In this document: piece after piece, positions 2,577-31,016 of the stretch
How the letters are laid out: every line of letters begins with the position of its first letter
How positions within the stretch are numbered: position 1 is the stretch's first letter
IMG/VR virus record: IMGVR_UViG_3300030333_004579
Location: 1 to 35,658 of that record
Reading direction: 5' to 3' (one strand)
Origin: a virus
Length of the DNA stretch: 35,658 bases
Program-made: the position numbers and the translations under genes
Notes under the pieces: generated by a model
What the model saw: only the letters and a program-made list of their open reading frames with translations
The model's database searches: none
What the model was told of the DNA's origin: nothing

Positions 2577-3014
2577 TTACTCTTTGTTACTATTATTTAG
2601 GAATTGTTGTTTAATCATCTTTGATAAGTCACTAGTAGAACCAACAAACACTGCATTGTTAGTCACATTATTTGTAGTTTTTACTTTATCTTCATCAACT
2701 TCTTTAATTTTTTTCTGTAATTCCATTAACTTATCAGTTGTATCAGCAACAGACTTAATAATCTGTCCTGCAACTTCATATGCTCTTGGACTTGCACTTT
2801 CACCAGCAAGTTCCATAATTCCATTAAGAGATTCTTGTCCTTTCTCAATCAAAGAATATAAGTTAGCACGAGTATATTCATAATCTTTTTCAACATCATC
2901 ACTTACATTCTTTGTGCCATCTTTTCTAGTAATACATCCATTTTCTGGTGTAGTACTCACTTCAATAGCACTAGTAGTGTTTAGTGCTTCATCTATAGGT
3001 TCATAACTAGACAT
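2577..3014 (-). CDS. 16: Terminase small subunit gp16
   Basis: 145 aa from the ATG at 3014. The small terminase recognises and oligomerises on DNA and regulates gp17 during packaging. Evidence is position (after gp15, before gp17 as in T4), length near T4 gp16 (164 aa), and the conserved helical core: YEYTRANLYSLIEKGQESL, then a run around ASPRAYEVAGQIIKSVADT with Leu-rich helix DKLMELQKKIKEV, ending in NNAVFVGSTSDLSKMIKQ. That core is the oligomerising coiled coil in this family. A GTG at 3023 overlapping the gp15 stop (TAGTG) could add three residues (MNT); I prefer the ATG. It is followed by the charged 161-aa gene rather than directly by gp17. Confidence 0.93.
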   Translation of the reverse strand: MSSYEPIDEALNTTSAIEVSTTPENGCITRKDGTKNVSDDVEKDYEYTRANLYSLIEKGQESLNGIMELAGESASPRAYEVAGQIIKSVADTTDKLMELQKKIKEVDEDKVKTTNNVTNNAVFVGSTSDLSKMIKQQFLNNSNKE

Positions 3015-3022
3015 GGTATTCA

Positions 3023-4066
3023 CTATACGTCAGTTTGTTTAGTTGGACTATATGATAATCCATCATCAAAGAAATCATTAAATTCATTAAATCCAAAGTC
3101 ATCACCCATCTCAATTTTTGCATCATCAGCAGTAGTTAATAAATTAATAGTTGAACCATTAACATGTTTAGCAGCAATTGAACTATCAAATCCTCTTTTA
3201 ACAATCATAGTAGTTGCATCTTCTATACTTTCAATTCTCATAATTTCACTATCAATTACAATTCTATTCTTAGCAGCTAATCCAGAAGTAGACTGAACAG
3301 TAATTCTAGTTTCAGATGTAGTAAGATCTTCACCTAACTTTGCTGTTTCATCATCATTATAATCTTTAAGTGCCTTAGGTGTTGCAACATATCTAACTTG
3401 ACGTTTTGCGGTTACAGCAGTATCAGTTGAATAATCCACCTGAACTTTCTTAATAAGTCCATCACTAGTAGCAGCAACAGGACCGAATAGATATGTTTTT
3501 GCAGTAAATTGTAAAGTGTAAATTAGTGCTGTTCTTGTAGAGAAATCCCCTTCATATTCATCCCTAAAAGAAATATTATCTAATACTATTGGAACATCTC
3601 TTTTTTCTCCAATAGAACTTACTAAATTAATTGTTATATTAAATGATGGTTGAAAATATGGTAATATCTGTTCAATAATTTGAAGTGCATCATCATTTAA
3701 TTTGGAAAATATACTTAACTCAAATCCAATATTATAAGGAATAGGCATAAAAACTTTTTTTAAATTTGTTCCATCTGATGCCTTAAATGTTTGTGTTATT
3801 CCTGATTTTCTAGATGGATCATATTGAATAGAAGTCATCTCAAATGACATTCTAGGAAGAGTTATTGCAATTGCTTTTGTTAGGTTAGCTTGCTCTCTAA
3901 TTTTTGCAAAAAACTTTTGTTGAGGACCATAAGCAAGTCCAACTTTTGTTTCATCAAGAGTTTCATTATCTTTTCCCTCATGTTTAATAAAAATGCTATT
4001 AAACAAAGTACCAAAACCAATAATGGTTTTTCTAATAATTTCGTGATAATAATATGTTCCTAACAT
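3023..4066 (-). CDS. 15: Tail terminator / sheath stabiliser gp15
   Basis: 347 aa. gp15 caps the contractile tail and joins it to the neck. The N-terminus (MLGTYYYHEIIRKTIIGFGT, then LFNSIFI) and the central FMPIPYNIGFELSIFSK and LQFTAKTYLFGPV segments are typical of T4-like gp15. T4 gp15 is about 272 aa; the surplus is concentrated near the C-terminus, where residues about 246-313 form a small beta-rich module (TRITVQSTSGL, IVIDSEIMRIES, VKRGFDSSIAAKHVNGSTI) that recurs in the DUF4815 protein and the gp7-like giant. The ATG at 4066 overlaps the gp14 stop as TAATG, so translation is probably coupled. Confidence 0.95.
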   Translation of the reverse strand: MLGTYYYHEIIRKTIIGFGTLFNSIFIKHEGKDNETLDETKVGLAYGPQQKFFAKIREQANLTKAIAITLPRMSFEMTSIQYDPSRKSGITQTFKASDGTNLKKVFMPIPYNIGFELSIFSKLNDDALQIIEQILPYFQPSFNITINLVSSIGEKRDVPIVLDNISFRDEYEGDFSTRTALIYTLQFTAKTYLFGPVAATSDGLIKKVQVDYSTDTAVTAKRQVRYVATPKALKDYNDDETAKLGEDLTTSETRITVQSTSGLAAKNRIVIDSEIMRIESIEDATTMIVKRGFDSSIAAKHVNGSTINLLTTADDAKIEMGDDFGFNEFNDFFDDGLSYSPTKQTDV

Positions 4067-5514
4067 TAGTATTGTCCAAATGGGTTGCCTTCAGTAAAGT
4101 CAAGTAAATCATCTGCTTCATTTTCTATTTCAGCATTAGAATCAAATGCATCATCAACACTATCTGTACTGTAAGATTCTACAATATATGTAGCAGATGA
4201 TATTCCACCAACAATAGTTTCACCTGGATAGAACTGTCCAGTATTTAGAGATACCTTAAGATCTATTGGTGGATAAGTCGCATTGATATCAGTACGTATC
4301 TTAAAGTCTCTAACTCTCGCTTCAACTCCAGACGTTTGACCAGTTACTATCTCGTTATATATGTAAGTTCCAATTCCAGTACTAGTTATACCACTAAATG
4401 CAATAGTAGGTGCAACGGTATATCCAGCACCAGCATTAGTAAATTGTATATCAACTACTTTACCAGCACTCATAACTGGTTCTACAGTAGCAGTAGTACC
4501 ACCAGCAGGTGCTGCTGTAACAGATATTGTTGGTGCTTCTGGATAACCAACACCTTGTTGATCTACATTAATAGTAGAAATACCTGCATTCACTATACCA
4601 AATGTAACTGCAGCACCTGCTCCTCCACCACCAGTTAATACAATTAATGGTGGATTCTCAGCACTATATCCCCGACCTGGATTAATCATCCTTATTTCTT
4701 TCAGGGACTTAACACCCCCAAGTGAAGTGGTAATTGCAACAGCAGTTGCTTGAATTAATGTAGATACACCAGGACTCCATCCAGGAGGTGGTGATATTTC
4801 AACAAGAGGTGGAGTCTTATATCCAGCACCATCATTGGTTAATGAAATATAACCAATCATTCCAGTAGATCCTATTGAAGCTACACCATTAGCAGTAACA
4901 CCAGTACCAACTAATTGTACTAATGTAGTATAACCTTCATCTTCCATTGCACTATCAATTTCATTAATAGTGGTATCAATAAGTTCATTCTCATATTCAT
5001 AAAGTTCACAACTTAATTCATAAGTATAGTTTCTACCTAATTGATAAAAAGGTTTTTCACTTTCAACTCTTTTAATTTCAAATAATCTTTCTCCAAGAGG
5101 GAAATAGATTAAATCTCCTTCTTTAGGTCTTGTAACTAAATCTTCAAATGTATAGTCTGTAATATATCCATCTCTAATTCCAGAACTCAAACCTTCTAAT
5201 ATTGGTGCAATAAAGTTTTCAAATCTTTCTCTTGAAATAGTAAGACTTACTTCATTGGTTAATCTCAAACCAAATTTAGTCATTAAATCTGCACCAGGAT
5301 TATATCCCTCATAATTATTTAAATATGCTTCAATTAAAAAAGAGTCATCAAATTTAGATGACTGAACTTCTCTAATAATATCATCAGTTTTAAATGTTTT
5401 TCTAGGAAGGTAATATACCTCTACTCCATAGATACCTAATTGTTCGTTTATTAAATCTTGAACTAAAAACTGCTCGTTTTTAGATCCTTGTAAAAAATAG
5501 GAATTTAATGGCAT
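4066..5514 (-). CDS. 14: Neck protein gp14 with inserted GxGY repeat domain
   Basis: 482 aa. gp14 forms the neck with gp13 and seals the filled head before tail joining. The first about 190 residues match the T4-like family (MPLNSYFLQGSKNEQFLVQD, IYGVEVYYLPRKTF, LIYFPLGERLFEIKRVE). T4 gp14 is 256 aa, so roughly 200 residues are extra. They lie at about 200-390 and consist of four repeats of an I-x-I/V-x-N-x-G-x-GY-x-x-x-P-x-I/V pattern, with GxGY at residues 229-232, 280-283, 321-324 and 362-365. The insert is Gly/Thr/Pro rich and probably a beta structure exposed on the virion neck. The family-like C-terminus resumes after about 395. The gene starts at ATG 5514, six bases after gp13. Confidence 0.94.
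   Translation of the reverse strand: MPLNSYFLQGSKNEQFLVQDLINEQLGIYGVEVYYLPRKTFKTDDIIREVQSSKFDDSFLIEAYLNNYEGYNPGADLMTKFGLRLTNEVSLTISRERFENFIAPILEGLSSGIRDGYITDYTFEDLVTRPKEGDLIYFPLGERLFEIKRVESEKPFYQLGRNYTYELSCELYEYENELIDTTINEIDSAMEDEGYTTLVQLVGTGVTANGVASIGSTGMIGYISLTNDGAGYKTPPLVEISPPPGWSPGVSTLIQATAVAITTSLGGVKSLKEIRMINPGRGYSAENPPLIVLTGGGGAGAAVTFGIVNAGISTINVDQQGVGYPEAPTISVTAAPAGGTTATVEPVMSAGKVVDIQFTNAGAGYTVAPTIAFSGITSTGIGTYIYNEIVTGQTSGVEARVRDFKIRTDINATYPPIDLKVSLNTGQFYPGETIVGGISSATYIVESYSTDSVDDAFDSNAEIENEADDLLDFTEGNPFGQY
4400..4850 (-). repeat. Four degenerate GxGY protein repeats inside gp14
   Basis: Encodes gp14 residues about 222-372. Each unit has a short hydrophobic strand ending in Asn/Gly, then GAGY, GRGY, GVGY or GAGY, then an aromatic/Pro-rich strand (KTPPLVEI, SAENPPLIVL, PEAPTISV, TVAPTIAF). 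Spacing between GxGY centres is 51, 41 and 41 residues. The units are divergent at DNA level apart from short Pro/Gly/Ala-rich runs. The same repeat is present in three other virion proteins of this window. Confidence 0.8.
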
Positions 5515-5520
5515 TTTTTA

Positions 5521-6366
5521 TCAACCTATCATATCAAGAGGTGGCATTTCATAATCAGTTGACATTTTAGACAATATTGCCTCTATGTCCCTATCACCAT
5601 CATCATATAATTGTCTTCCATTTAACTCTATTCCACCAGGAAGTTTAACTCCTTGGAACTTAATTAAATTTTGCCCCCACTGTTTCTTAATTGTTGCTGT
5701 TAAATATCTTTTTAAGAAGCTATCATTATAAACACCACTATATGATGCTGGATCTAATGCTCTATAGCAATCAAGAATAATCCAATTACCTTCTTCTTCA
5801 TCTTTCCAATCAATATCCAAATATAATCTATCTTGCCTTTTGGTATATCTTATTTGTTTATCAGTAGTAAGTAAATGATCAATATCCTCAAGATATGATT
5901 TTGTCATAGAATAATTTAAAAGTCCATTATATCCAAGATTAAACGCAACATCATTTAAAAATAATTGATATTTGAAACTAAACATTCCACTAGAAATAGT
6001 ATTATTATCAAACTTAAATACTTTTTCTACACCAATAACTGAATCTGGAACCTGAATAAAATTAGAGTTTTCATACCAATATGAAGTGAATTTCCCAGAA
6101 CCACTATCCACAGATTCTGCAGAAGTAGTTACAATACCAACACCAGTAGTTGCCTTTGCTTGTCCACGACTTACATCATCAGCAGTAAATTGATGTTTCA
6201 AATACATTCTCTCAACACCATCAAAATGACGTTCATTGAATAATTGAATAGCATCATCTGCTAAATCATCTAATTGCTCATCATCAACATTAATCTCCAG
6301 AACAGGAGCTCCTAATTTTCTTAAACAAAAATCTATCAGTTCTTGTTTAGTGGTTGGTTTTGCCAT
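5521..6366 (-). CDS. 13: Neck protein gp13
   Basis: 281 aa, close to T4 gp13 (309 aa). With gp14 it builds the neck that closes the portal after packaging. The N-terminus (KQELIDFCLRKLGAPVLEIN, then VDDEQLDDLADDAIQLFNERHFDG) is the conserved start of this family in marine T4-like phages, and later parts keep LFLNDVAFNLGYNG and a C-terminal KKQWGQNLIKFQGVKLPGG. No large insertion is present, unlike its partner gp14. The ATG at 6366 overlaps the preceding gene as TAATG and has one of the best ribosome binding sites in the window (GGAGG at 6376-6380). Confidence 0.94.
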   Translation of the reverse strand: MAKPTTKQELIDFCLRKLGAPVLEINVDDEQLDDLADDAIQLFNERHFDGVERMYLKHQFTADDVSRGQAKATTGVGIVTTSAESVDSGSGKFTSYWYENSNFIQVPDSVIGVEKVFKFDNNTISSGMFSFKYQLFLNDVAFNLGYNGLLNYSMTKSYLEDIDHLLTTDKQIRYTKRQDRLYLDIDWKDEEEGNWIILDCYRALDPASYSGVYNDSFLKRYLTATIKKQWGQNLIKFQGVKLPGGIELNGRQLYDDGDRDIEAILSKMSTDYEMPPLDMIG

Positions 6367-8669: not shown

Positions 8670-11600
8670 TATGCTAAAGCTATAACTCTTAAATCTTTAA
8701 ATCTAGGAGGATCTGCTTCATTAGTTCCACTAATAACTACCTTAATTTGGAATCCAGTAAACTCATCTAAATCATTAGCAGTAAATTCATAATCTAGGAA
8801 TTCATCTTTCTTACTTGCACGAACTAATTTATCAGCTCTTCCACTATTCTTAGCTGGATCAACAACTTGAAGTTCAATATCAACATCTCTAAGATTATCA
8901 TATCCAGGGAATAAATCATATGATTGTTCAACTTCAGCAGAATCTGGTTTAAACAATCTATATAAAACTCTAAAGTCTGATGTTGGTCCTCTATAAGCAC
9001 CAATCAATACTTTTAAAGAAGTTGATGGATTTTTTAAATCAACTCTTTGAGATATGTAACAAGCAGCATGTGGATCTCCTGTTAATGCATTGGATCTAGA
9101 ATCTTCAGTGTAATCTACTACTGGATTATTTAATCTATTTCTAAAGAATCTGAATGCTCCACATTGAATGTCCAATACAGGAGATAAATTAGAATCAGAA
9201 GTCTTAAAGTTTGTTAATAAAGTAACTGATTTATTTCTTGGTAAATTAGTTAATCTCAATTCTTCATCAACTTTTGATGCGAGTAATCTAGGTGTATCTA
9301 ATCTATTAAATTGATTAAATTCAACAGGAGTATATCCTTTATCAGTATAAGATACTTCAGTACCACCATCACTAGTTCCAGATACTGTTCTTAATTGTGC
9401 GGAAATTTCCGTTCCACTTCCAGGAGTTAATACATTAAATGATGGAGTGAATCCATCATATTGGAATTGTTTAGAAGATTGAATTGTAGTTCCTCCAGCA
9501 AAACCTTCTTCAGTAAAGGAAAGTTGTGCTCTACCACTAGTTCTATTTGGAAGATTTGTTCTACCAGTTCTCTTCGCCTCTATTACATAACTATCAATCG
9601 TCTTCTGTGCCTTCAATGCAGAAGAAGTTACCATATCATGGGTAGTATTAATTCCAACCAAAGAGAATCCATTAAATTCATATGGATATACTGGAGTATT
9701 TACTGCATGATTCACAATAGGGGTTCCACCGTATCCTCTTGTACCAATACTTAATGCATCAACACTTATACCATCATAATATATAACTTCTGGACCTATC
9801 TTAACATATCCTGTAGAGGTTGATATTCCTTCTGCTGTAGTAAATGTTGCTGTACTTATACTAATTGTAGTATCAGCAGAAGTTAAAGCACCTGTAAGAT
9901 TAACAGGAACAGTATTTGGTTCGATACCCTTAATACTAACTCTATTAGTATCAGCAGTCATACTGTGATTGTACTGCTTTACTTCCATCACATTACCACT
10001 ATATAATTCCCCAAATTGTTCTGAACTAGTAATTGCTGTAGTTGCAGCACCAAGAGTAGTTGTAGTTCCATCTGATTCATATTGAATCAACCAATTACCA
10101 GTATCAAATGATTCTCCCTGAACATTAGTTAGATATAGTGTATTAGCTACATCCATTTGATCAACTGATATTCTAGCACCTGAACCTATTTTCTGAGCAG
10201 CAGTAGCACCTAAAGATGAAGTTTTAATACCTAGAACATCACCAACACAATAACCTTTATCTGCGGTAGAACCTTTAACACTTATTTGAGTTATTTCACC
10301 AGAAGAATTTGTTGTAACAACACCAACGGCACCAGAACCATTACCAGTTATTGTATATAATTCAACACCAGTAAGATCTGAACCAGATGCACTCTGTACA
10401 TATCCACTTCCTGCATTTGTTATAGTAACCTGTCCTATTCTACCACCAACTTTTTCAATATATCCTTCTGCATCACTAGGAACACTAGGAGCAGTTCCAC
10501 CAGCCCAACCAGAAACTTTTTTACCTGCTACATATGAGGTTTCAAAACTACCAGTATAATCAGTATTAGTAAATCCAATCTTAAGTTTTCTTGGATATGA
10601 TTTTATTGCATTAGTAATTAATGTATTCTTTGGATCCTCATCTGTAAGTGCAGAATTATATAAAGTTAAATCACCTGTTGAACCAGTTATAAATGAAGCC
10701 TTATAAAGTGTAAATTTAAGATCTTCAAATTGACTTGCTGTCCAAATAGTACCATTCTGAGACTTAAATAGACTTCCTCCAATATATTGTTTAGATATTA
10801 TAGATTGACTACCCTCACCTAGAGTTCTAGTTTCTATAGTAGGTTCACCCATTCTAGCAGTCCAAACTTGATACTTTTGAGTATTTGGTGCTAAAAGTAC
10901 AACTGCATATTCCTTTCCTGCTTCTAGGTAAACTGGAGATGTGAAAGTTACTCTTGTGGGCACTGATGCATCATCAGATGTCTTAATAATAGAATCTCCA
11001 GTAGAATCTGTTTCTGTCGGATCAAGTTCAACTTGAGCATAATCTGCTACAACTTGATTTGTTGGAGTTCCAAGTTCAACTGTTCTTATTTGAACTGTTA
11101 TTCTTTGTGTATCATCTTTAGAGAAGAAATATAAATCCAACCCTGTTAAGAATGCTCCACTCTCATCAACAAAGAATGATTGAGCAAGAGGATCGTCATG
11201 CTGATAAGGAGGAATTGGGCGTGGTCTTATAATAGTTTTTGTTCTATCATAGTAATTTATAATACCGTTAGTAGTATAATTAGTTTCACCAAAACTCAAA
11301 CCAGAATCTCCAGCGACTCCAGGTGCATTTGTACTAGATGATGTTAATCTGAATGTACCAGTACCATTGTTAAATCTTAATGGTGGAGTAGGAGTAGTAT
11401 TTGGATCTCTAACCCAAAAAGCACCATTTACATTTCCAAGATTATCTGCAATCATTCTAACATCAGAAACTGTAGCAATTGCACCACTTGTTAGTCCCTT
11501 TAATTGCATATTTTTAGTAACAAATCCATAATAATCACCTCGTGTCTCTGTCAATAATGATGCAATATCTACGTTTAGAACTGTAGAAGACTCTGTATAA

Positions 11601-17597: not shown

Positions 17598-20500
17598 TTA
17601 TGTTGATTTATTTATTCCACCTGATTTCCTAATACCAATATTTCTTCTTTGTATTCTTGGGAAGGTGGATAATCCAGCATTAATAGTCTTAGAAGTTACT
17701 CCTATTGATATTGGAGTTGCAGATCTACTAAACCCAGATAATCTACCCCAAGAGAACTTACCAGAACCTTCACCAGTAGTACCAATTCCAATAATACTTG
17801 AATTAGAATCAACATTAGCAATAAAGTCTGCATTTAATCCAGTTCTATTAATTGAACTTACATAATATATGTTATCAATAAAGGTAGTACCTATTCCTAC
17901 AACAGAATCATTTCCAGTTGCATATATTGAAGTTACTCCAGTTCCTATATTAGTATCATAAACATAAATTGGATATCCATTTTGAAGTTCGGTGAAATCA
18001 CCAGAAGATTTATTCAAGAAGAACTTCAATGCCAAAGTTCCAGTACCACCACTTCCAAATGCAGTGGTTATTCCAGTAACTATTCCAGAGAATCCATCAA
18101 TATTTCCTTGTGTAATACCAGCAACGGTTTCTGATGGAATTACTGGTGCTGGTGCAATTACATGAGGTGCAACAGTATATCCTAATCCTGGATTTGTAAT
18201 AGTAATAGATGTAATATTTCCACCACTTATTGTTGCAGTTGCAGTTGCAGTTGTTGCAACACCAACCTGAATCTTAGTCCTTGGTGGTGATATTGTTAAT
18301 GGGACTGTAGTAGTACTAAATCCACTTCCACTACTAGCAATTGAAATAGCATTAACACTACCTCCAGAAATAGTAGCAGTAAAAGCAGCTCCTGATAATG
18401 TTTCTGATTCATCAAGAACAATAACATCCATATTTCCAGATCCTTCATAATCAAATAATTCCACAGTATCAACAAACATTTCATTATCGGTTGTAGTGAA
18501 ATCAGCAATTATTCTTGCATTTGGGAATACTAATGGTTCAATAGAAGGTCTTACTTTAGAAATTACTTCACCATTAATTGTTTTGTCGATTTTTTGCTTA
18601 ATCCAAGTTAATGGTTTTGGATTAACAGCATCAATACCTTTACCATAATACAAATTAGTTTCAACTGTATCAGAAGTTGTTATACCACTAATAGTTCTCT
18701 TTTCTTGATTAGTTTTTGTACCATCACCAAATATCTGTACCTGATCACCTACCTTTATAGTTTCATCTACATCAATATAAGTAACATCAACATTATTAGT
18801 TCCTTTATAGAAGAAAATAACAACAGTATCATCAACATCAGGTGGTTCAGTAAAGGCAAATGTAGTTCCTCCACCAAATGTATAAGATTCACCAGGAACC
18901 TGTAATACACCATTAACGAATATTAGAAGCAATGCTTGTATATCCATTTCTACAGCATCATCTTTCTGGAATGATACTAATTGATCGTTATAATTTAATG
19001 GGAATCTTGTTCTAAATCCATCCTGTAAATCTTTAATAGAATCAATATAATCAAATTCTCCAACATTCCAAGAAGCAAATGCATCTGTAAATACATTATT
19101 CACAGTAAACTCTAAAGGTGTTAAAAGTGAAGAGAAATATCTATCAGTTACAATACCAATAGGTGTAAATACATCACCTCTCTTAAATCCAAATCCTTCC
19201 CTCTTAATATCAAAAGAATTAACCTCATTCGAGATAGATCCAATACCTGTTGTAGAACTAGGACTAGGATTAATATCCATTTGCAATGAAGTACCAGTAT
19301 CTGTAGTTAATCCAATACCTAATCTAGATATTCCTAGTACATCAAGATTTTCATATGCAGGTGCTGGTGGTAGAATTCTTGGATTAACATAACCCTTACC
19401 AGCACTACTAATAGAGAATTTCAGTGCTCCACCACTTCCTGCTGGTGATTTACCAACATTTAAAGTAAATGAAGTTGTAGTACCAACGGATTCAACACCC
19501 AAGGTTGTATTATATGCTGGATCTGAACCTGGATTTTGCTTATCCTTTCTAGGATAAGAATGTAGACTAACATTACTATCCTGAGTACATGTAAATGTAA
19601 ATGCACTTGTACCAATTCCAACTGTATTATTTGCTTTCAATATACCACTAGTAGTTCCAGATACAAATGTATGATCTGTTGTATTAGTTGAAGGTACTGA
19701 ATCTAAAACTTGAATCGAGAACTGAGTGGCTGTCTTCTTAGTAATTTGTACCCACTTATTGAAAATTGGATCTGTTGCTCTTGGGTAAGTGTGAGTACTG
19801 TCATTATTATCCTTTGCACATGTGAATGTTAAAGAATTTTCTGCAATCTTAACATAATCACCAGTATTATATCCATGACTACCATTAGTTGTAATAGTCA
19901 TAATACCAACATGTGGATTATATACTGCTGCTGTAGCTGTCTGCAATCCTGCAGCACTAAGTCCATGTGGAGTGGTTGTAGTGACTGTCATAATACCACT
20001 CACTGGGTCGTATGCATTACCTAAACCACCTATTGAATATGGACTAAAGTAAGTAGTACCATCCATCAAGAGAGAACTTGATAATCCACTTACATAAGTA
20101 TGAATATTTCCTTGTACAACAGTAGCAGTTATAACTGCACCAGTACCTCCACCACCAGCAGATCCAACACCTACTGTAATTGAATCATCCGTTGCCGACT
20201 TAATGGATAACCAAGCACCATTAGCTTCATCAGTTGAACGTGGATAATATTGAATACTCTTATAATAATCACTAGAGCATCTAAATGCCATAGAAGTAGT
20301 TGCAATTCCAACAGTATTTGCAGATCTACTAATACCATTAGTAATACCAGAAACAAATGTATGAGTACTAACATTTGATGAAGGAGCACCAGCAATCTTA
20401 AGAACGTTAATCTCAAAGGTATCCCCACCAGTTACGTTAGAAATAGGTACATATCTTCCAGCTATAGGATCAGAAACTCTTGGATATAAATGCTGAGTAG

Positions 20501-23500
20501 CATCATTATCTTCTTTACATGTAAATGTTAATGATTCATTTGATATCCTAACTATTTGTCCATTTGCAAGAGCAGGAGAAGGTGTTGCACTGAGTTTAAC
20601 AGTCAATATACCTACAGTTCCATTATAATATGTTCCAGTCGTTGCTGTGTAAGTATCAGCAGTTATAAGTCCATGACTAGACTTAATTAACGTTAATTCA
20701 CCACTATCAGACTTAAATGTTGCATCTGTAGGTGTAAATGTTGAATAAGCACCAATACCATTAGGATTAACTGTAATTGAATTAACACCAGCACTTACAA
20801 ATCTATGAGTATATGCTACATCTGTTATACCAATAGAAATATTTCCATTAAGAGTATATCCAGATCCATGATAATCTGTACTACCAATTCCAACTGATGT
20901 AATATTTCCTACAGAGTTAGTTACTGCAGTTACTGATGCACCAACTAGAGGGGCAATTCCAAGTCCACCACTAGAACCAATAGATATAATTTGTCCACCT
21001 CTAGGTAATTGATTCTGATTTGGATCGTTATCTACAACAATTAAATTACCATTGGTAGATGTAATTCCACTGAATACGAAACTAGTAATGCCAGAAACTT
21101 CTTTTGTAAAGTCGTAATTATTAAGTTGATTATTTTCAGTAGTTGGTGACTGGAATAATCCATTTAATGCTACAAAAGTACTTCCAGTTACAATACCAGC
21201 AGTATTTGCACCACCAACTTTTACTGTAAATGTTTGTCCAATACCAGTAAACTCTCCAGATATATCATCAAATACAGCATTAGTAGAATAATCTTGTCTT
21301 AAATAAACTCTTCCACTGAAAGTTGCTCTACCTGAATCTCTATTAGAAGAAGCTTTTAATCCTTGATCTACACCACTAGGTGGTTCAGTAAAGTAAATAC
21401 TATCACCAACAATATTATAAGCACCTCTATACAATCTTAAAGTGGTATTATCAGCATGTGTAGATGCAGAAGTACCAACAAATCCTCTTTCAACTTCTAA
21501 TATATTAAGTGTTCCATTTTCAGTTATAGGTCCAACACTGGTTGTTCCAACTCCAATATTGGTGACTTTCATATATTCATTATCTATTTTTAGAACATCA
21601 TTTAATATAATAGATGAAATTCCACTGACAGAAATTAATGTAGTAGATATTCCAACTTGCCCTGCTACGTTATTAGTAATAGTTTCAGTAATTGGAGTAT
21701 ATGCCAATGGAGATTGAACCATACCATCCAATGTAATCAAACTCTTCTCATTTTTCTTGGACATCTCCAATAAATGATAATTACCAGTACCAAGTCCAAT
21801 AAAGGTTACTGCTGCCCCTGCTTTAGTAGTTGATAATTGGAAACTATCTGAATTTGTTCCTGAAGCTTTTACATATACTTCTTCTGGTAATGGATTACCA
21901 TTAGACATTAATAAACGTCCAGTACCAATACCATCTATTGAAGATCCTGGAGTATAAAGTAATTTCTCATCATTATAGAAGAAATTATTTGGAATATTAA
22001 ATGTTCCTGTTGCTAAATCAACAACATCTGAAGGATTAAAATAATTACCAAAAATTGGATCTTCATTATGAGTTAATTTAAATTCATTTCTATTTGTCCT
22101 AGTTCCATTTATTGAATCATATTGTAGAAGAGATAAAGAATCTATTTCTAAACCTGAACCATACTGTAAGTCTGGTGCTAAATTAATTAAATCTAGTTCA
22201 GAGTTAAATACTTCACTATAAGTTTGAACCTGTATATCATCTCCACCAGTAAATACAGAATCTGGATGGAATACTAACTCAAAATCAGATCCATTAAGTT
22301 GCGATGAGAATGTTCCTATTCCAGTAGTAGTACCAATAGATACGAATGGATACTGCTGATAGTATACATTAGATTCATCATGTGCCATTAATACTTGATG
22401 TATAGCACTTGTATTGCCAACAGATACCCTTATAATACTCTTAGAACTGGTAACATCAGTCTTACTAAATTCAAGAATTGTTGATGCAGCAGAAACCCTA
22501 TTATATGAAGATTGTAATCTTAGAGTATTTTCTTGTCCATCATTTTGAGCACTAGTTTTAAATCTATATGTTCCTATACCAGCTGCTGTTGTACCAAATC
22601 CCACAACATGAGATTTAACTGATACTTCATTACTCCTATCATTTTCATAATTTACCGATAAAACACCAGACTCAATTTTTGATGTAATTGAACCAATAGC
22701 ATTTGTTGTATTAGTATCAAAATCATAACTTGAAATATAAGAGTTAGTTCCATCATGTGTTACATATAATTCAACAATCTTATTCTCATTTGAGAACGTA
22801 TCATTTAATTCAACTGTTGTGAAGAATGAATCAATAGTTCCAATTCCAGAAGATATTATAGTACTTGTAGTTGCAGCACTAACGTTTTGATTAATAGAAG
22901 TTAAACTAACAAATCCAAAACTAGTTGTTCCAATACCAGTTGAAGCACCTAATTCAGTTTGGAAGATTTTTATATCAATATCATCACTGTAAATGTCAGA
23001 TGGAGTCAATAGTAACTGATATGAAGTAGTTGGTTCCTTATCCCCAATAATATCTAAAAGAGGATTGGTTTCAAATATATCACCTTTTTGTATAGTATAA
23101 ACATCTTCATTTGTAAAATCTATTGTTGTTAGTAATTCAGTTAATTGAATTTTCTTAGTGGTTGGATTTTTTGATTGTATTAAAAATCTTCCAAAAGATT
23201 CAGTTAATGGTAAAGTTCCATCTTTCTTTACATTATTTGTTGCATTGCGGAATAATGATACAATATCATCTACAGTTAATACTCTATTGGTAGAACACTT
23301 AAAGTAATCTACAAGTTCTTTAGTTTCAAATCTAATATATTTTGATCTTAATGGATTACTTAATGGTGCAGAATCTGTAACTAAATCAAATGCTTTAATA
23401 ATATCAACTCTGTTCTCAGAGAATAAATCACGAGTTATAGTGGTAGCATCTGCTGCAGTTGATAATCCAGAAGATGTAGAAGAACTAATACCAGTATCAG

Positions 23501-26500
23501 CAAAATTCTTAAGTCCACTAGTATGAAGAAGATTATTTACATGACTTGATAATTCTTGATATTCAATTGGACTTTGAATAGTATATGATAAATTCTGATA
23601 ATAATCATTATCTGGTAAGACTTGATAATCTTCATTTAACTTACCAGTATCACTATACCACCCTTTATTTGTATCTGATGAATAATCTACTGTAAATTTA
23701 CCAGTATTATCATATAAACTGCCAATAGTAGCAATAGAACCACTGAATACTCCTTTAATTCTATCACCTTTCTTCAAATCATACTTACCACTTAATTTAA
23801 TATAATCATTAGCAATTTTATCCAATTTAAGTCCAACATCTCTAAATTCAAAACCATCTGCATTATCTTTAGGGAATTTGACTAAAATAGTTTCACCTTC
23901 TGAGAAAACTGAAGATTTTTGAGTTATATTAAATCTAGGATATCTATTTTCATTAACAACTTGTCCAAAGGTTTGTACTGTTTTAGCAAGTCCTGGATTA
24001 TTAGCAATATCAAGTATACTAATTTCCATTTGGAAAGGATTTTTAGTTAATCCTGGCTTAGTTACCCAAGTATCAACAACAGGGAAGAATTTATATCCAT
24101 TGTCGGGTGAATTAAAACTATTTCCTCCAAAAGCTTCTTCAAATTCTACTTGTTCAACAAATGCTTTATCATTAGGTATAAATGGATCTGTTGTAAATCC
24201 AAGTACTGGAGTTTCTAAAGTAAATGTTACAATTCCAGTTGCATTATCAGTAACAACAGTACTACCAGAAGTTACTCTAGTAATTGAAATAGAGTTTGTA
24301 TTATCAACAGCATATATTCTAGGAACATTTAATCCTTTAGGTGGTGATACCACTCTAACAGAATCAACAGCCTGTGTTGATTGAGATACCTCTGCAGTTA
24401 AATTTCCAGTTTCATTAACTTCTCTACTAATTTCATCAACAACAACTAGTTTAGGTGCACTTTGATATCCTCTACCACCATCAACAATTTCTATTGGCGG
24501 TTCTATAGCACCATAGTCACTTAATGAAATTACTGGAGATAATTTTGCAGTTGCCCTTAAAGTTTTATCTGAAGGATATTCAAATCCAATATTTGTAATA
24601 TTAACATCTTCAATTTTATTTGCTTTAGTAGATCTTGGTAAGATTACAGCATTTTGTCCTTGAGTAGATGCAATACTTACAAATTTTGGCATTTGTTTGT
24701 ATCCTACACCACCAAAATCAACCTTAATAGAAGCTACTGGACCTCTAGTAGATTTTGATTTAGTAGTATATCTTAAAACATCAGTATCACCATTATCATA
24801 TATTAGAGATTCTGGTTTTTTATCTAATAAAATACTGAATGTTGTATCACCAACACCAGTAATTGAATATTCACCAGTATAATCACTTGTATGATAAGAA
24901 ATTTTAGATCCATTTTTAACACTAACATCAGATGTGCTAATAAAACCAGTTTTTTCTATATTATAAAATAATGAACTTGGATTATCTTGATAATATTTTA
25001 GAGTAACAGTTGCAGTTGTTGTAACACCAACAGTTCCAACACCAGATACACTAATTAAATCTGTACTTCCTGTAGATACAAATTGATTCTCAAATTTACT
25101 GTCATAATATAGATTAAAATCATATCCCTCTAAAGAAGAATCGGAAACGTCAAATACTAAATCATTATTTCTTATGACAGGAATATTTGGATTTATTAGA
25201 GATATTTCCCCAACAAAAGTTGAACCTACACCAACCAAATTTATAACTTTTGGTGGATAATTTACAACATTATGATAAGTATTTGCTAATTTAATATTAT
25301 TATCATCTACCCTATAAACAAAATATCCACCAGTTTCTAATCCACTAATAGAACTATATGTAGGACTATAATATACCTTATCACCAGTTTTAGTATCATG
25401 TCCATTAAGGGTTATAATATTTGTTCCTACATTTACCCCTACTTTTCCAAATGTCTTTGGATTAATTAATAGTTTATTGATAGATGAATTATATTTTACA
25501 ATAACTGATGATGAAGTACCTACTCCAACAGCTTCATTAGCATTAACTGATAAATTAATAACATCGTTTGCTATTAAATTGTGATTAGTTGAAACAGATA
25601 CTAAAGCTGAAATAGTCTCAATAGTTCCTGTTACTTGTTCAAAATTAGATTCGAACTTGTATTCAAAATCATAATCAGCATTAGATAAGAAATATAAACC
25701 ACCTGGTGATGCATTGGTTGTTTCAGTATTTAATCCTATATTATCAATATCAGTAACTATACCAATAAAATCATCTGATTTATTAATAACAAATACATCC
25801 TGTGAATTTCCACTTAAAGGTATACTAAATCCTAAAGGATTTGTTCCATCATCAGATACACCAATATTTGCTTTACCTGCAGGTTTTGTAAATGTTACTT
25901 TTTGTCCTGTTTTAAATGGATGATTTGGTAAATAAATGCTTTGAGCAGGAATTGAAACATTACGTGCGGTTTCACCCACAGAAACCCATGCAGTATATCC
26001 AATACCAGTATCTCCATCAGTACCTATTCCAAGAGCTTGTTTAGGATTGAAGTAGACAACATCATCTATTTTAGACTCAAAATTATCAGTTTCTACAGGT
26101 AATATAAATTGAGTTGGATTTAATTTAACTTCTGTAGATAATGTATGTGCAGTTCCTACAACACCCCTTCTAACTCTTAATACCTTTCTATCATCAAATT
26201 TATTAATAACTGCAAGACTTTCTGTTCCTATGCCTATACTACTTCCTACAGATATTAAAGAAGTACTACCAACGTAAATATCAGTTATAATTCCTGCTGT
26301 TGCATTTGCAGCAACTTCTTGATATAAAATTGTACTTTCAGTTGCAATACCAATAGAATGTGTACCTTGAAGAGATTGAATATCTGTTGTTAATCCAGAA
26401 ACTTCAACTTTATCACCAACCTCAAATTGATGTGGAGTATCAAAATGTGCTATTACTTTCTTAGAATCTTTCCAAGTAAACTTAATTTCACTATATTCAT

Positions 26501-29500
26501 TATAAGTTGTTTCAATTGTAGATAAAGCAGGTCCATCAATACTTTCAACAGTAGCACTTAAACCATTTCCATTAGTTCCAGTATCATCAAAAGTTAATAC
26601 ATCACCAACCTTATAATTATCTCCCGATTTTACAATTTCAAGACTTTCTACATCACCTTGAGTTACAGCACTAATAACTGCTGATTGAGAAACAATATCA
26701 TCAGATTCTATAAAGAATGTTTTAGTAAACTTATCAGCAGATTTATATGGGAATGTATTTCGTACCAATTCCGAATTATTAAAATCAAAATTTTGATTTA
26801 TTAAAGATTCTTTATCTAAAGTTTTAGGTTCACTTCTATAAGTTCTTCCGATAAAATATGGGAATTTTGGTTCCATATTACCTGTAGAAGATATCCCTGC
26901 AAAATATGCATAAACACCATTAGGAAATTCAGGTGTTACACAATATCTTCCATTATGCTCATCCAAATCACCAGAGGCATCATATGAATAATCATCAGCA
27001 AAGAATCCTGCTGGATATGTAGTTATTCCAGGTCTATTAGATACTTTTGAAGCATCTAAAGTATAACTAGGACTTAAAATCTTAACAGAGCTAGTATCAA
27101 AAGGATCACTGTATCCAAATGGACCATATATTGGATTTCCATCATAAGCCCATCCAATAATAGGGGAATGTCCTCCTTCAAAATCTCTAAAGATATTGGT
27201 AATTTCTGGAGATGATGATTCAAAATAAGACTTACCAATTTGAGTTGAATATCCAACTACAGAATATCTTAATCCATATTCAGATTCTTGAAGTAAAGTA
27301 CCAGGATATTTTTTACTATATGGACTTTGTGTTTGAATATTATTCAAAGGTAATTTTCTTACGTTTGAATCAATAATTGCATTTTTACCAGCTGGTATTA
27401 CCTTAATTTGAGTATTGGATGTAGTAAATCCAGTACCACCATTAAGAATTACAGTATCAATTATTCTTAAATAATTGGTTGATGTTGGATCTTTATCAAT
27501 AATAGGACGTATTCTTGCACTCAATCCATCCCCAACTACCTCTAAATCAGGCGTAGAGTAGTATTCCCCACCTCCATCATCTATTCTAACCTTTGATATT
27601 TTAGAGTCTATTATAATCGGTACCAGAGCAGGTTTGATATCCTTATCTCTTCTACCTACACCATTCTTAATTGTTATTTCTGGTTTATTTTCATAATTTA
27701 TAACTGTATCAGAACCATATGAAGTTCCTTCCTCATATAATAATACATCAGTTAAATGTCCACGAATAACAGGTGTTAATACAATTTTATCTGAAGTATC
27801 AACAGAATATCTTATTTCAGATTCTATTTCAATATTAGGATATTTAAATTCTTGATAACCAGTTCCAGAAGAAGTAAATTGAACATAATTCTTTTCAATA
27901 TAGTCTGTATTATCCGTTCCAGCAACTCCAGCATTTGCTAGTCTAAATGAGTCATCATTTTGCTTAAGTACTTTATATTGTACTGTAGTTCCAAGTCCTA
28001 CAATATTTACAGAAGAACCACCACCATATACTATCTTCTCTCCTTCAGAGAATCCATGATTCTTAAAGTTAATAATTGAATCAATTGTTGATATTTTTTC
28101 TGGTTTTACAAAAACACTTCTATTCTCAAATGTACCACCTGCCTGTATTATAGCAACAGAATTTAAAGTATTTTTAGCATACTTGAGTCTAAATTTATGA
28201 GTACCAACATTTTTACCAGTTACTGCAGTATATCCTATAGTATTAATTCCTGCATTATAATCAGACTCTGTTCTATAAAGAAAAACACTACTTATTCCAA
28301 GAACTTGTGGATAATATGTTGCACCATCAACTAATTCATCATTACCAGGATTAAAGGGATTATTACTTCCTTGATATGTTCCTATACCTAAAGCAGGATA
28401 GGTATTTCTATTATAAATTAATGGTTCTCCACTCTTTAAATTATGATTTTCTTTAAACGTAATAGTTTCACTAACAGTATCTACTCCACCACCTTGTGTT
28501 ATAATTCTAGCATCAAATTCTAATTCTCTATTTCTCTTTTTAATTACAGGTCTTAAAACAGTTTCATCACTATTACCACCAACTACTTTAATAGTAAGAA
28601 CGTCTTCAATATCAAAATTTTGAGGATCAACTTGGATTTCACTAAGAGTACCAGAAATTACAGGTTGAATTAATGCTGTAACACCAATACTAGTAGCAAC
28701 ATCTATTTTTGGTGGATTAACTACATCATAATTAGTTCCTTTACTTATAACTGAACAATTTTCTAATTCTCCATAATAAATGATGTCTGATGATCTATTA
28801 TTTTCAATTTCAACACCATTAATCAACATTCCAACTGGTCCTGGAATTGTTTTTACTTTTTTAGTAGAATTTAGATTTACATCTATTGAAAACTTTTTAA
28901 GTAGTTTTTGAGATTGAAGTTTTTTATTATAATGCTTTAATAGAGTAAATGTATGAGAACTTGTTACAGTTGGAATAGTAAACTCTTCAAAACCATCAGT
29001 TTCTACAAAAGATGCAGATAAGTATAGCTTAATTTGATTATTACCAACATTCTTTATATAATAAACACCTTCTCTTAATCCAGTTAATGGTGTAGTTCCA
29101 GGTGTATATTGTACAGCATCACCAGTAACAAAAGGAACATCACCAGTAAAAGATATTATTGAATATTTTCTTGTAGTTGAATTATATCCTTGTATAGTAG
29201 TGTTTGCAGTAGCACTACTAATACTAGATTTAAATATTTCATTCTCAATTGTAAATGATGGTAAAGAATTAGTAGCAACGTATAAAGATTCATGAGATTC
29301 ATTATACACATTTTGTATATCTGAAGCTAAAACATTATTACCATAATCAATTTCTACACCACTACTAGAAGATTTTGTTATAATTTTTCGTAAATCATAA
29401 TCCTTTCCAGACTCAAAACTTTGAGGATTTTCTATTACAACTTTATTTTGAGAAGGTGTTACACTAAGTACTCTTCTATTTGTAATAAAAACTTTTTGTT

Positions 29501-31016
29501 TATCTAATGCTAATGGATTACTAATTCTTTCTAGTATTTCAACAGTATCACCTACTTTTAAATAAGATTTATCAATAGAAGTCTTTAATATTAAAGGATC
29601 TGTGCCATTTGCATTATCAACTATTTGTAGTAATGTTGATGTATTATACTGCCAAGAATTTGCAAGAACTTCTTTACGTGTTTTTGCATTATTTTCAATT
29701 ATTTCACCAACACCTTTAATAAGAATAGTTTCTCCTTCTAATGATAATCTATTATCATCTGATGGAACAAATTTGGATAATACTCCAGTAATTCTTAATT
29801 CAACTTTCTTACTTAAATCTCCATCTTCATATCCAAAGATAATTTCATCAGATCTTAAACTCTGTCCAGATATAATATCTGTAGTAATTGAAGATACACC
29901 CAAGAACTGGTTAATTGTTTTATCAGTATAAACAATATTTGTATTAATTCCAACAATTTCACCATCTATCTCAACACCATCACTTATAATTGTTCCAGAA
30001 GTAGAAAAACCTATTGTTGAATCTACAGTAATAATAGATGAACCAGAAGATACATTACCTATTACTCTAGTTTTTCCTGGAACATCAAACGTTCCTGTAA
30101 CATATTCTTCATCATCATATCCAACAAAAATATCTAAATTATAATATTCTGCAGTACTAACACCAGTAATTCCTGTAAGTTTCTCAACTTCTGATATTGA
30201 TGCAGTGCTTGTACTATCACTAGACTTAGTTATTGTTTGTCCTTCTAATTTTACTGGATCACCACTTAATCTTTCTGCAACTATTCTTTCACGTCTAATA
30301 TATTTTGCTGAAGATGGTTTTACTAGGAAATTTTCAAGATCAATAACTTTTGGATCAACACCATATAATACTTGGAAAAGGATTCTAAATGATTCTTCAG
30401 TACCTTTTGCTTCGTAAAAGCTTCTTGCTTCTTTTATAAAATTATTAACATCTAAATGTGATACAAAATCAACACCTTCCAATCCTGGTGTAAGAGAAAT
30501 CTTAAGTTTTTTATAAAATTCTTGTAAAAATAAGGCACTTAGGTTTTGAATAACAGCATCTTCATCATGACTAGCAGCAGTGGTATCTGAAAATACCAAT
30601 GAACTTGGATCATCACTAGAATGATATGTTGTTATTCCACTAAAACCACGTTCACAACCTGTAAAAGTATTTCCTGCTATTCCAGTATAAGTGATGATTT
30701 CATCACCTATTTTTAAAAGACCGTATTGATCAGGGAAACCTTTTGTACTACTAACAGTAATACTATCATCACCAGCAGTTATACCAACACCTAAAGTTGT
30801 TCTTGCTGTTATTACTTCTGGTGTTAGATTGTCTAATTTTAGATATTGATCTAAATTATCAGTAATATCAATGGGACCGCCACGATATTCTTGTGAAATA
30901 TAATATTGTTTTAGAAAATCAGCAGCTTTCGGGCTTTCAGATAATACAAACTCTGGAAGTTGATTATCAATTATTTGTTGTACTTGAACCCTTTTATCAA
31001 TCCCTGTTGTAATCAT
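17598..31016 (-). CDS. 7: Giant gp7-like baseplate wedge protein with YHYH domain (4472 aa)
   Basis: 4472 aa, one uninterrupted 13.4-kb frame, in T4 gene 7 position between gp6 and gp8. T4 gp7 is 1032 aa and ties wedge proteins to the baseplate centre. Residues about 13-255 are the conserved N-terminal part (LPEFVLSESPKAADFLKQYY, QEFYKKLKISLTPGLEGVDF, EARSFYEAKGTEESFRILFQ). Residues about 1275-1365 hold a YHYH-type domain, with GWAYDGNPIYGPFGY at 1288-1302 and DEHNGRYCVTPEFPNGVYAY some 50 residues later. The rest is mostly beta-rich: three IGxE...RGxxGT modules (near 75-145, 1577-1637, 3118-3205), many GxGY-type repeats, and four LTFTC...YPR units at about 3470-3840. Around 3960-4060 is a segment with INPLN/LIFVNGVLQVPGESYTFGG style seen in phage appendages. 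The gp7 call rests on synteny and the N-terminus. AAGGA precedes the ATG. Confidence 0.85.
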   Translation of the reverse strand: MITTGIDKRVQVQQIIDNQLPEFVLSESPKAADFLKQYYISQEYRGGPIDITDNLDQYLKLDNLTPEVITARTTLGVGITAGDDSITVSSTKGFPDQYGLLKIGDEIITYTGIAGNTFTGCERGFSGITTYHSSDDPSSLVFSDTTAASHDEDAVIQNLSALFLQEFYKKLKISLTPGLEGVDFVSHLDVNNFIKEARSFYEAKGTEESFRILFQVLYGVDPKVIDLENFLVKPSSAKYIRRERIVAERLSGDPVKLEGQTITKSSDSTSTASISEVEKLTGITGVSTAEYYNLDIFVGYDDEEYVTGTFDVPGKTRVIGNVSSGSSIITVDSTIGFSTSGTIISDGVEIDGEIVGINTNIVYTDKTINQFLGVSSITTDIISGQSLRSDEIIFGYEDGDLSKKVELRITGVLSKFVPSDDNRLSLEGETILIKGVGEIIENNAKTRKEVLANSWQYNTSTLLQIVDNANGTDPLILKTSIDKSYLKVGDTVEILERISNPLALDKQKVFITNRRVLSVTPSQNKVVIENPQSFESGKDYDLRKIITKSSSSGVEIDYGNNVLASDIQNVYNESHESLYVATNSLPSFTIENEIFKSSISSATANTTIQGYNSTTRKYSIISFTGDVPFVTGDAVQYTPGTTPLTGLREGVYYIKNVGNNQIKLYLSASFVETDGFEEFTIPTVTSSHTFTLLKHYNKKLQSQKLLKKFSIDVNLNSTKKVKTIPGPVGMLINGVEIENNRSSDIIYYGELENCSVISKGTNYDVVNPPKIDVATSIGVTALIQPVISGTLSEIQVDPQNFDIEDVLTIKVVGGNSDETVLRPVIKKRNRELEFDARIITQGGGVDTVSETITFKENHNLKSGEPLIYNRNTYPALGIGTYQGSNNPFNPGNDELVDGATYYPQVLGISSVFLYRTESDYNAGINTIGYTAVTGKNVGTHKFRLKYAKNTLNSVAIIQAGGTFENRSVFVKPEKISTIDSIINFKNHGFSEGEKIVYGGGSSVNIVGLGTTVQYKVLKQNDDSFRLANAGVAGTDNTDYIEKNYVQFTSSGTGYQEFKYPNIEIESEIRYSVDTSDKIVLTPVIRGHLTDVLLYEEGTSYGSDTVINYENKPEITIKNGVGRRDKDIKPALVPIIIDSKISKVRIDDGGGEYYSTPDLEVVGDGLSARIRPIIDKDPTSTNYLRIIDTVILNGGTGFTTSNTQIKVIPAGKNAIIDSNVRKLPLNNIQTQSPYSKKYPGTLLQESEYGLRYSVVGYSTQIGKSYFESSSPEITNIFRDFEGGHSPIIGWAYDGNPIYGPFGYSDPFDTSSVKILSPSYTLDASKVSNRPGITTYPAGFFADDYSYDASGDLDEHNGRYCVTPEFPNGVYAYFAGISSTGNMEPKFPYFIGRTYRSEPKTLDKESLINQNFDFNNSELVRNTFPYKSADKFTKTFFIESDDIVSQSAVISAVTQGDVESLEIVKSGDNYKVGDVLTFDDTGTNGNGLSATVESIDGPALSTIETTYNEYSEIKFTWKDSKKVIAHFDTPHQFEVGDKVEVSGLTTDIQSLQGTHSIGIATESTILYQEVAANATAGIITDIYVGSTSLISVGSSIGIGTESLAVINKFDDRKVLRVRRGVVGTAHTLSTEVKLNPTQFILPVETDNFESKIDDVVYFNPKQALGIGTDGDTGIGYTAWVSVGETARNVSIPAQSIYLPNHPFKTGQKVTFTKPAGKANIGVSDDGTNPLGFSIPLSGNSQDVFVINKSDDFIGIVTDIDNIGLNTETTNASPGGLYFLSNADYDFEYKFESNFEQVTGTIETISALVSVSTNHNLIANDVINLSVNANEAVGVGTSSSVIVKYNSSINKLLINPKTFGKVGVNVGTNIITLNGHDTKTGDKVYYSPTYSSISGLETGGYFVYRVDDNNIKLANTYHNVVNYPPKVINLVGVGSTFVGEISLINPNIPVIRNNDLVFDVSDSSLEGYDFNLYYDSKFENQFVSTGSTDLISVSGVGTVGVTTTATVTLKYYQDNPSSLFYNIEKTGFISTSDVSVKNGSKISYHTSDYTGEYSITGVGDTTFSILLDKKPESLIYDNGDTDVLRYTTKSKSTRGPVASIKVDFGGVGYKQMPKFVSIASTQGQNAVILPRSTKANKIEDVNITNIGFEYPSDKTLRATAKLSPVISLSDYGAIEPPIEIVDGGRGYQSAPKLVVVDEISREVNETGNLTAEVSQSTQAVDSVRVVSPPKGLNVPRIYAVDNTNSISITRVTSGSTVVTDNATGIVTFTLETPVLGFTTDPFIPNDKAFVEQVEFEEAFGGNSFNSPDNGYKFFPVVDTWVTKPGLTKNPFQMEISILDIANNPGLAKTVQTFGQVVNENRYPRFNITQKSSVFSEGETILVKFPKDNADGFEFRDVGLKLDKIANDYIKLSGKYDLKKGDRIKGVFSGSIATIGSLYDNTGKFTVDYSSDTNKGWYSDTGKLNEDYQVLPDNDYYQNLSYTIQSPIEYQELSSHVNNLLHTSGLKNFADTGISSSTSSGLSTAADATTITRDLFSENRVDIIKAFDLVTDSAPLSNPLRSKYIRFETKELVDYFKCSTNRVLTVDDIVSLFRNATNNVKKDGTLPLTESFGRFLIQSKNPTTKKIQLTELLTTIDFTNEDVYTIQKGDIFETNPLLDIIGDKEPTTSYQLLLTPSDIYSDDIDIKIFQTELGASTGIGTTSFGFVSLTSINQNVSAATTSTIISSGIGTIDSFFTTVELNDTFSNENKIVELYVTHDGTNSYISSYDFDTNTTNAIGSITSKIESGVLSVNYENDRSNEVSVKSHVVGFGTTAAGIGTYRFKTSAQNDGQENTLRLQSSYNRVSAASTILEFSKTDVTSSKSIIRVSVGNTSAIHQVLMAHDESNVYYQQYPFVSIGTTTGIGTFSSQLNGSDFELVFHPDSVFTGGDDIQVQTYSEVFNSELDLINLAPDLQYGSGLEIDSLSLLQYDSINGTRTNRNEFKLTHNEDPIFGNYFNPSDVVDLATGTFNIPNNFFYNDEKLLYTPGSSIDGIGTGRLLMSNGNPLPEEVYVKASGTNSDSFQLSTTKAGAAVTFIGLGTGNYHLLEMSKKNEKSLITLDGMVQSPLAYTPITETITNNVAGQVGISTTLISVSGISSIILNDVLKIDNEYMKVTNIGVGTTSVGPITENGTLNILEVERGFVGTSASTHADNTTLRLYRGAYNIVGDSIYFTEPPSGVDQGLKASSNRDSGRATFSGRVYLRQDYSTNAVFDDISGEFTGIGQTFTVKVGGANTAGIVTGSTFVALNGLFQSPTTENNQLNNYDFTKEVSGITSFVFSGITSTNGNLIVVDNDPNQNQLPRGGQIISIGSSGGLGIAPLVGASVTAVTNSVGNITSVGIGSTDYHGSGYTLNGNISIGITDVAYTHRFVSAGVNSITVNPNGIGAYSTFTPTDATFKSDSGELTLIKSSHGLITADTYTATTGTYYNGTVGILTVKLSATPSPALANGQIVRISNESLTFTCKEDNDATQHLYPRVSDPIAGRYVPISNVTGGDTFEINVLKIAGAPSSNVSTHTFVSGITNGISRSANTVGIATTSMAFRCSSDYYKSIQYYPRSTDEANGAWLSIKSATDDSITVGVGSAGGGGTGAVITATVVQGNIHTYVSGLSSSLLMDGTTYFSPYSIGGLGNAYDPVSGIMTVTTTTPHGLSAAGLQTATAAVYNPHVGIMTITTNGSHGYNTGDYVKIAENSLTFTCAKDNNDSTHTYPRATDPIFNKWVQITKKTATQFSIQVLDSVPSTNTTDHTFVSGTTSGILKANNTVGIGTSAFTFTCTQDSNVSLHSYPRKDKQNPGSDPAYNTTLGVESVGTTTSFTLNVGKSPAGSGGALKFSISSAGKGYVNPRILPPAPAYENLDVLGISRLGIGLTTDTGTSLQMDINPSPSSTTGIGSISNEVNSFDIKREGFGFKRGDVFTPIGIVTDRYFSSLLTPLEFTVNNVFTDAFASWNVGEFDYIDSIKDLQDGFRTRFPLNYNDQLVSFQKDDAVEMDIQALLLIFVNGVLQVPGESYTFGGGTTFAFTEPPDVDDTVVIFFYKGTNNVDVTYIDVDETIKVGDQVQIFGDGTKTNQEKRTISGITTSDTVETNLYYGKGIDAVNPKPLTWIKQKIDKTINGEVISKVRPSIEPLVFPNARIIADFTTTDNEMFVDTVELFDYEGSGNMDVIVLDESETLSGAAFTATISGGSVNAISIASSGSGFSTTTVPLTISPPRTKIQVGVATTATATATISGGNITSITITNPGLGYTVAPHVIAPAPVIPSETVAGITQGNIDGFSGIVTGITTAFGSGGTGTLALKFFLNKSSGDFTELQNGYPIYVYDTNIGTGVTSIYATGNDSVVGIGTTFIDNIYYVSSINRTGLNADFIANVDSNSSIIGIGTTGEGSGKFSWGRLSGFSRSATPISIGVTSKTINAGLSTFPRIQRRNIGIRKSGGINKST
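18160..18370 (-). repeat. GxGY-type repeats near the C-terminus of the gp7-like giant
   Basis: Two adjacent units at residues about 4220-4290: NAISIASSGSGFSTTTVPL and ITSITITNPGLGYTVAPHVI. The second closely resembles the gp14 unit with GAGYTVAPTI, sharing GYTVAP exactly. Further units in the same protein are near residues 1145, 2100, 2180 and 3865. Confidence 0.75.
19500..20560 (-). repeat. Four LTFTC...YPR repeat units in the gp7-like giant
   Basis: Residues about 3485-3840. Unit cores are LTFTCKEDNDATQHLYPR, MAFRCSSDYYKSIQYYPR, LTFTCAKDNNDSTHTYPR and FTFTCTQDSNVSLHSYPR. They alternate with ...HTFVSG(I/T)TxGI segments, so the array looks like two copies of a two-unit block of roughly 230 residues. 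The second unit has lost the first Thr and the His. Each core keeps one Cys and a Tyr-Pro-Arg. Confidence 0.85.
27070..27190 (-). other. YHYH-type domain core within the gp7-like protein
   Basis: Encodes GWAYDGNPIYGPFGY at residues about 1288-1302, the signature of YHYH domains, also found in secreted and membrane proteins of bacteria and in cyanophage baseplate proteins. The partner motif with His and Tyr (EHNGRYCVTPEFPNGVYAY) is at about 1340-1362. The function of the domain is not established to my knowledge; a role in surface binding is speculation. Confidence 0.8.

Follow-up and report, generated by a model that had tools for sequence, protein, structure and literature searches.

Structural gene block of the fragment

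The window analysed here comprises the entire viral record of 35,658 bases and is a structural-gene fragment of a T4-like cyanophage of the Kyanoviridae. Its structural block lies on the minus strand and holds gp25, gp6, a gp7-like protein of 4472 aa (17598-31016), gp8, a DUF4815 protein of 2413 aa, a fibre-like protein, gp13 (5521-6366), gp14 (4066-5514), gp15, gp16 (2577-3023) and the large terminase (431-2086), the last being assigned from its sequence and position only. The gp15 gene (3023..4066, minus strand) encodes a tail terminator, or tail sheath stabiliser, of 347 aa that matches PF16724 (E 6.9e-84; 281 bits against a Pfam gathering score of 25) and phrog_227 (E 2.8e-97). The terminator fold was recognized through T4 gp15 (4hud/4huh, VIA Z 16.4), and the gene order gp13-gp14-gp15-gp16-gp17 is that of the T4 gp15 neighbourhood. 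Among phage records the nearest gp15 is that of Marine virus AG-345-L05, also in the Kyanoviridae, with 84% identity.

An additional domain between terminator core and C-terminal tail

Being composed of three parts, gp15 begins with a terminator core (residues 1-228; 3383..4066, minus strand), and both Pfam and T4 gp15 alignments stop at about residue 216-239. The PF16724 match spans residues 5-239 and ends where the following module begins, while the T4 gp15 match ends at residue 216. The module itself (residues 239-313; 3128..3352, minus strand) comprises about 75 aa with the motif I-[DG]-x-E ... V-x-RG ... H and is predicted to form a small beta-barrel, as indicated by profile matches, a confident model and structural matches. 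It is followed by a conserved C-terminal tail (residues 314-347; 3026..3127, minus strand) of the form DDFGFNE...YSP...DV, in which D322, F324, G325 and F326 are invariant in 52 sequences. This tail is found in relatives without the module too and is probably a sheath-binding arm.

On its left the module is flanked by KALKDYND (residues 232-239; 3350..3373, minus strand), which is like the first half of an EF-hand-like linker, DxNxDGxIxxxDD, carried by some relatives that have no module. The flanking sequences KALKDYNxD and DDALI are each similar to one half of this linker, which suggests that the module lies within the EF-hand-like loop.

Module copies in two giant proteins

The original prediction held that a module with the pattern 'IGxE...RGxxGT...H' is shared by gp15 and the two giant proteins. 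A profile of gp15 sequences only, taken from 68 relatives, confirmed this by finding all four other copies above shuffled controls, the best of 400 shuffled copies of both giants reaching 2.4 bits. Against the 4472-aa protein this profile gave a whole-sequence E-value of 3.1e-11, with domain scores of 5.8 bits at residues 72-134, 13.6 bits at 1577-1624 and 17.3 bits at 3115-3193; in the 2413-aa protein it scored 8.7 bits at residues 2005-2074. A mixed profile gave E-values of 1e-18 to 1e-20 for three of the four copies, and these are circular for those giant-protein copies that the profile itself contained.

The first copy occupies the N-terminal region of the gp7-like protein (residues ~71-158; 30543..30806, minus strand), as indicated by profile matches and a weak model. 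It has an insert of about 20 aa ahead of H150, the homologous histidine, which is invariant in 42 relatives, whereas the H of 'RGFSGITTYH' is not conserved. The second copy, which had been placed near residues 1577-1637, was detected as well, yet it is short and divergent and covers residues 1577-1624 (26145..26288, minus strand). The third lies at residues ~3114-3198 (21423..21677, minus strand) and the fourth at residues ~2004-2078 of the DUF4815 protein (9677..9901, minus strand). Identity of these copies to the gp15 copy is only 16-28%. The 4472-aa protein also contains a YHYH domain (PF14240, E 6e-24) at residues 1283-1374.

Predicted fold and solved relatives

AlphaFold models the module better than the rest of gp15, with pLDDT mostly 90-97; the core is poor, many blocks having pLDDT of 42-78, which makes the position of the module with respect to the core unreliable. 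The nearest solved structures of the module are small beta-barrels of phage virion proteins, namely the VP1 major capsid protein (9in6_M, VIA Z 12.7), domain VI of the JBD30 baseplate hub gp53 (8rk3_b, Z 10.8), the Mystique tail tube (9n71_A, Z 10.1), the GP4 portal-tail protein (8jov_1, Z 10.0) and the Chi tail-tip minor tail protein (8vjh_B, Z 9.0). The original prediction had called for a structural comparison of the segments, and for two of them, those of gp15 and the gp7-like protein, it agreed with a common fold: the gp7-like copy has the same five chains on top (Z 6.7-8.3, a narrow margin over the value of about 6 of F1-ATPase barrels), although its model is weak (mean pLDDT 48.7) and these matches serve as support only.

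Sequence profiles reach three of these proteins. The strongest match among solved structures is Chi, in which two copies are found (E 3.7e-12), followed by the JBD30 hub, which shares the E...RG...T...H motif (E 3.1e-5), and the VP1 capsid protein (E 0.0026); half of a K1 depolymerase domain is also matched. These relatives occupy other virion positions than gp15. Chi and JBD30 are siphophages with the barrel at the tail tip, where that of JBD30 is an insert in the hub that contacts domain VII, whereas the barrel of gp15 belongs to a terminator, at the opposite, head-proximal end; the other three lie in a capsid protein (VP1), a tail tube (Mystique) and a portal-tail protein (GP4). The JBD30 barrel superimposes on the gp15 module with an rmsd of 2.1 Å over 78 residues; the range 446-560 of the 8rk3 chain is read as domain VI from the domain order in PMC11445458, which describes this domain as a six-stranded small barrel with a stabilising role in the baseplate.

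E, R and H are invariant in the module alignment, and no residues other than E, RG and H are (nearly) invariant when all copies are considered. As these residues are common to modules of unrelated phages, they point to keeping of the fold rather than to a shared ligand site. Scans of the module against Pfam and PHROGs found no named domain, Pfam matches being merely scattered and weak (K1-lyase Rider, E 0.03; Rcc01698_C, E 0.13). The solved neighbours and profile matches together place the module in a fold family that is already present in solved phage structures without a Pfam name: it belongs to a widespread kind of small RG...H beta-barrel in phage virions that has no name as yet. An analogous behaviour is that of the Ig-like accessory domains, optional surface beta domains on several virion proteins of phages, but the predicted fold of the gp15 module differs, and none of the Ig families in Pfam match it.

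Presence and absence among relatives

T4 gp15 (PF16724; 4hud, 4huh, 3j2m, 9mkb) is homologous to the core, residues 1-239, and has no module, as had been expected; likewise the gp15 of T4-type RB5 has 272 aa and no module. The aligned gp15s came from IMG/VR and named phages. The module is present in 64 of the 89 sampled Kyanoviridae gp15s and a short or EF-hand-like linker stands at the same place in 25, fractions that are not a census because the gp15s were sampled by their similarity to a query that itself has the module. The module is thus carried by only part of the cyanophage gp15 family. Among the 92 gp15s in the tree, 64 have the module, 21 a short linker (e.g. RYTVTPDPIDAEPGDDFGFSE; two of these lie outside Kyanoviridae), six an EF-hand-like loop (e.g. 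KALQDYNDDGVVNATDDPLIPYGDDFGF) and one, V07, a repeat extension. Carriers that can be cultured include S-CAM9, P-SSM4 and Syn19. Absence is clean in S-T4, S-SRM01, ACG-2014f, S-RIM2 and others, and nine changes between presence and absence are needed on the core tree of the Kyanoviridae sampled.

Profile searches found no module copy anywhere in the genomes of RB5, phiM12, V07 and Melnitz, and all other phage records tested hold two to eight copies. Many relatives without the gp15 module still keep baseplate copies; in S-CAM9, the copy-bearing proteins are annotated as baseplate wedge initiator, structural protein and tail fibre protein.

The EF-hand/dockerin-like loop (DxNxDGxIxxxDD) replaces the module in P-SSM2 (L007), DSL-LC02 (L104), S-RIM14 (L098), S-CAM3 (L105), L067 and L083, the P-SSM2 loop being without the G, and possibly forms a calcium site at the neck hinge. 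In Vibrio phage V07, which is KVP40-like, gp15 (L100:1201-2544, 447 aa) carries about 200 aa of DIDWSTRxxVxS-type repeats after the terminator core; the module profile has no match there, and the extension is an unrelated repeat.

Descent and rate of change

A module tree was built from 34 gp15 modules and 44 other copies on 70 columns, few for such a tree, and most of its deep forks are supported below 95. A single branch (support 89/84; recovered in 86% of bootstrap trees) separates the gp15 modules from all baseplate and fibre copies, including those of the same genomes. Core and module distances among carriers are correlated (Mantel r 0.66; none of 2000 permutations as high), and in close pairs core and module have equal synonymous divergence (dS ratio 0.96). 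The single gp15 grouping, the correlated distances and the equal synonymous divergence fit one ancient acquisition, vertical descent and repeated loss. A single early acquisition in cyanophages followed by vertical inheritance and several losses is probably the simplest account of these sequences, the direction of gain versus loss resting on the module tree and not on a rooted reconstruction. The module changes faster than the core: its dN is 3.4 times that of the core, with omega of 0.30 and 0.09, respectively. E, V and R are invariant and H is kept at 98% in 64 carriers.

Proposed role of the module

Several descriptions of other phages bear on where the module may sit. In T4, the terminator is attached to both the tube cap and the final ring of the sheath, and loops of fibritin touch gp15 (PMC3004832). 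In phage XM1, the C-terminus of the terminator augments a sheath beta-sheet; the C-terminal region of T4 gp15 is absent from the crystal structure (PMC10457771). Taken with the bracing role of the JBD30 barrel, this literature suggests a module on a neck-sheath tether with a bracing or weak docking role. By analogy, the module is most likely tethered at the neck-sheath junction, on the outside of the particle.

We propose that a single copy, probably derived from a giant baseplate or fibre gene, entered an ancestral cyanophage gp15, and that the descendants of this gp15 passed the module down vertically while several lineages dropped it. The module lies in the hinge that links the core to the C-terminal tail; the core would form the hexameric ring, and the tail, by analogy with XM1, would extend into the last sheath ring. 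At the neck-sheath junction, six barrels would then project as surface beads that are dispensable; they may brace or shield the junction or give a weak docking face for neck appendages, and would not be a receptor-binding surface copied from the baseplate. An accessory bead at this junction is the more likely role, and the explanation as a whole, an ancient gp15 barrel inherited vertically, repeatedly lost and dispensable, is favoured with modest confidence.

The module may instead be a tolerated passenger without a selected role, a self-folding domain in a permissive hinge that drifts until it is lost. Its repeated absence and fast amino-acid change would fit, as would a hinge that also takes other linkers and, in V07, a different repeat extension. 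However, omega is clearly below 1, and the near-invariance of E, V, R and H indicates that the fold has been maintained over great divergence; such maintenance could still reflect only selection against misfolding, and we regard this explanation as possible, if unlikely.

About as unlikely is a role in docking, with a neck fibre, collar or whisker protein as partner; presence of the module would then track the gene of that partner. Precedents exist in the T4 fibritin loop that touches gp15 (PMC3004832), the XM1 collar spike that touches the terminator (PMC10457771) and the neck fibres attached at the neck of A-1(L) (PMC10966104). Nevertheless, the sole neck variable compared, the length of the gp14 insert, does not track the module, and no partner gene was identified. 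Equally tentative is a broader possibility that the cyanophage terminator serves as an evolvable display platform, whose hinge cassettes (none, EF-hand-like loop, barrel, or long repeat in KVP40-like phages) would adjust the neck to collars or neck fibres that vary among hosts.

The original prediction further suggested that both tail ends may carry the same binding surface; terminator and baseplate would then bind the same ligand. One domain family does occur at both places, and two of its copies share their best structural matches. Beyond this common fold there is no positive evidence, and the proposal is not supported: the copies are only 16-28% identical within the genome, those of gp15 group by themselves, the module changes fast, and relatives keep baseplate copies while being without a gp15 copy. 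Comparison at the level of sequence columns between gp15 and baseplate copies revealed no shared positions besides the fold-type E, RG and H, which are kept across all copies and in unrelated phages. In addition, where a role has been described for a solved relative, it is to brace the baseplate hub of JBD30 (PMC11445458). A shared surface is therefore very improbable.

Repeated fresh transfer of the module into gp15 from baseplate or fibre genes, which patchy presence would allow, is mostly refuted by the separate gp15 branch, the distance correlation and the equal synonymous divergence of close pairs, and is the most improbable.

Significance and variation of the neighbouring gp14

A tail terminator, usually regarded as a conserved structural ring, here carries a real and well-defined domain that is optional, the gp15 module. 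A gp15 hinge that gains, keeps and loses whole domains shows that variability in these abundant marine viruses extends to the head end of the tail. No cyanophage gp15 domain of this kind is described in the searchable literature, which leaves most subscription papers outside and is thus weak evidence of novelty. Unrelated phages have members of the barrel family in capsid, tube, hub, fibre and neck proteins, and no Pfam entry matches this family; naming it would help to annotate many giant cyanophage proteins.

The neighbouring gp14 carries an insert as well (residues ~200-390; 4345..4917, minus strand), which consists of GxGYxxPP repeats and is unlike the gp15 module. Among relatives, no link was seen between the length of this insert and presence of the gp15 module. 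Matches to the repeats come from PHROG families (phrog_708, 701, 5342 and 22827) assigned to baseplate and virion structural proteins. The length of gp14 ranges from 213 to 1030 aa among relatives, and it is therefore an even more variable neck protein than gp15. In S-SRM01, an annotated homing endonuclease lies between a virion structural gene and gp15 (L091:656-1183).
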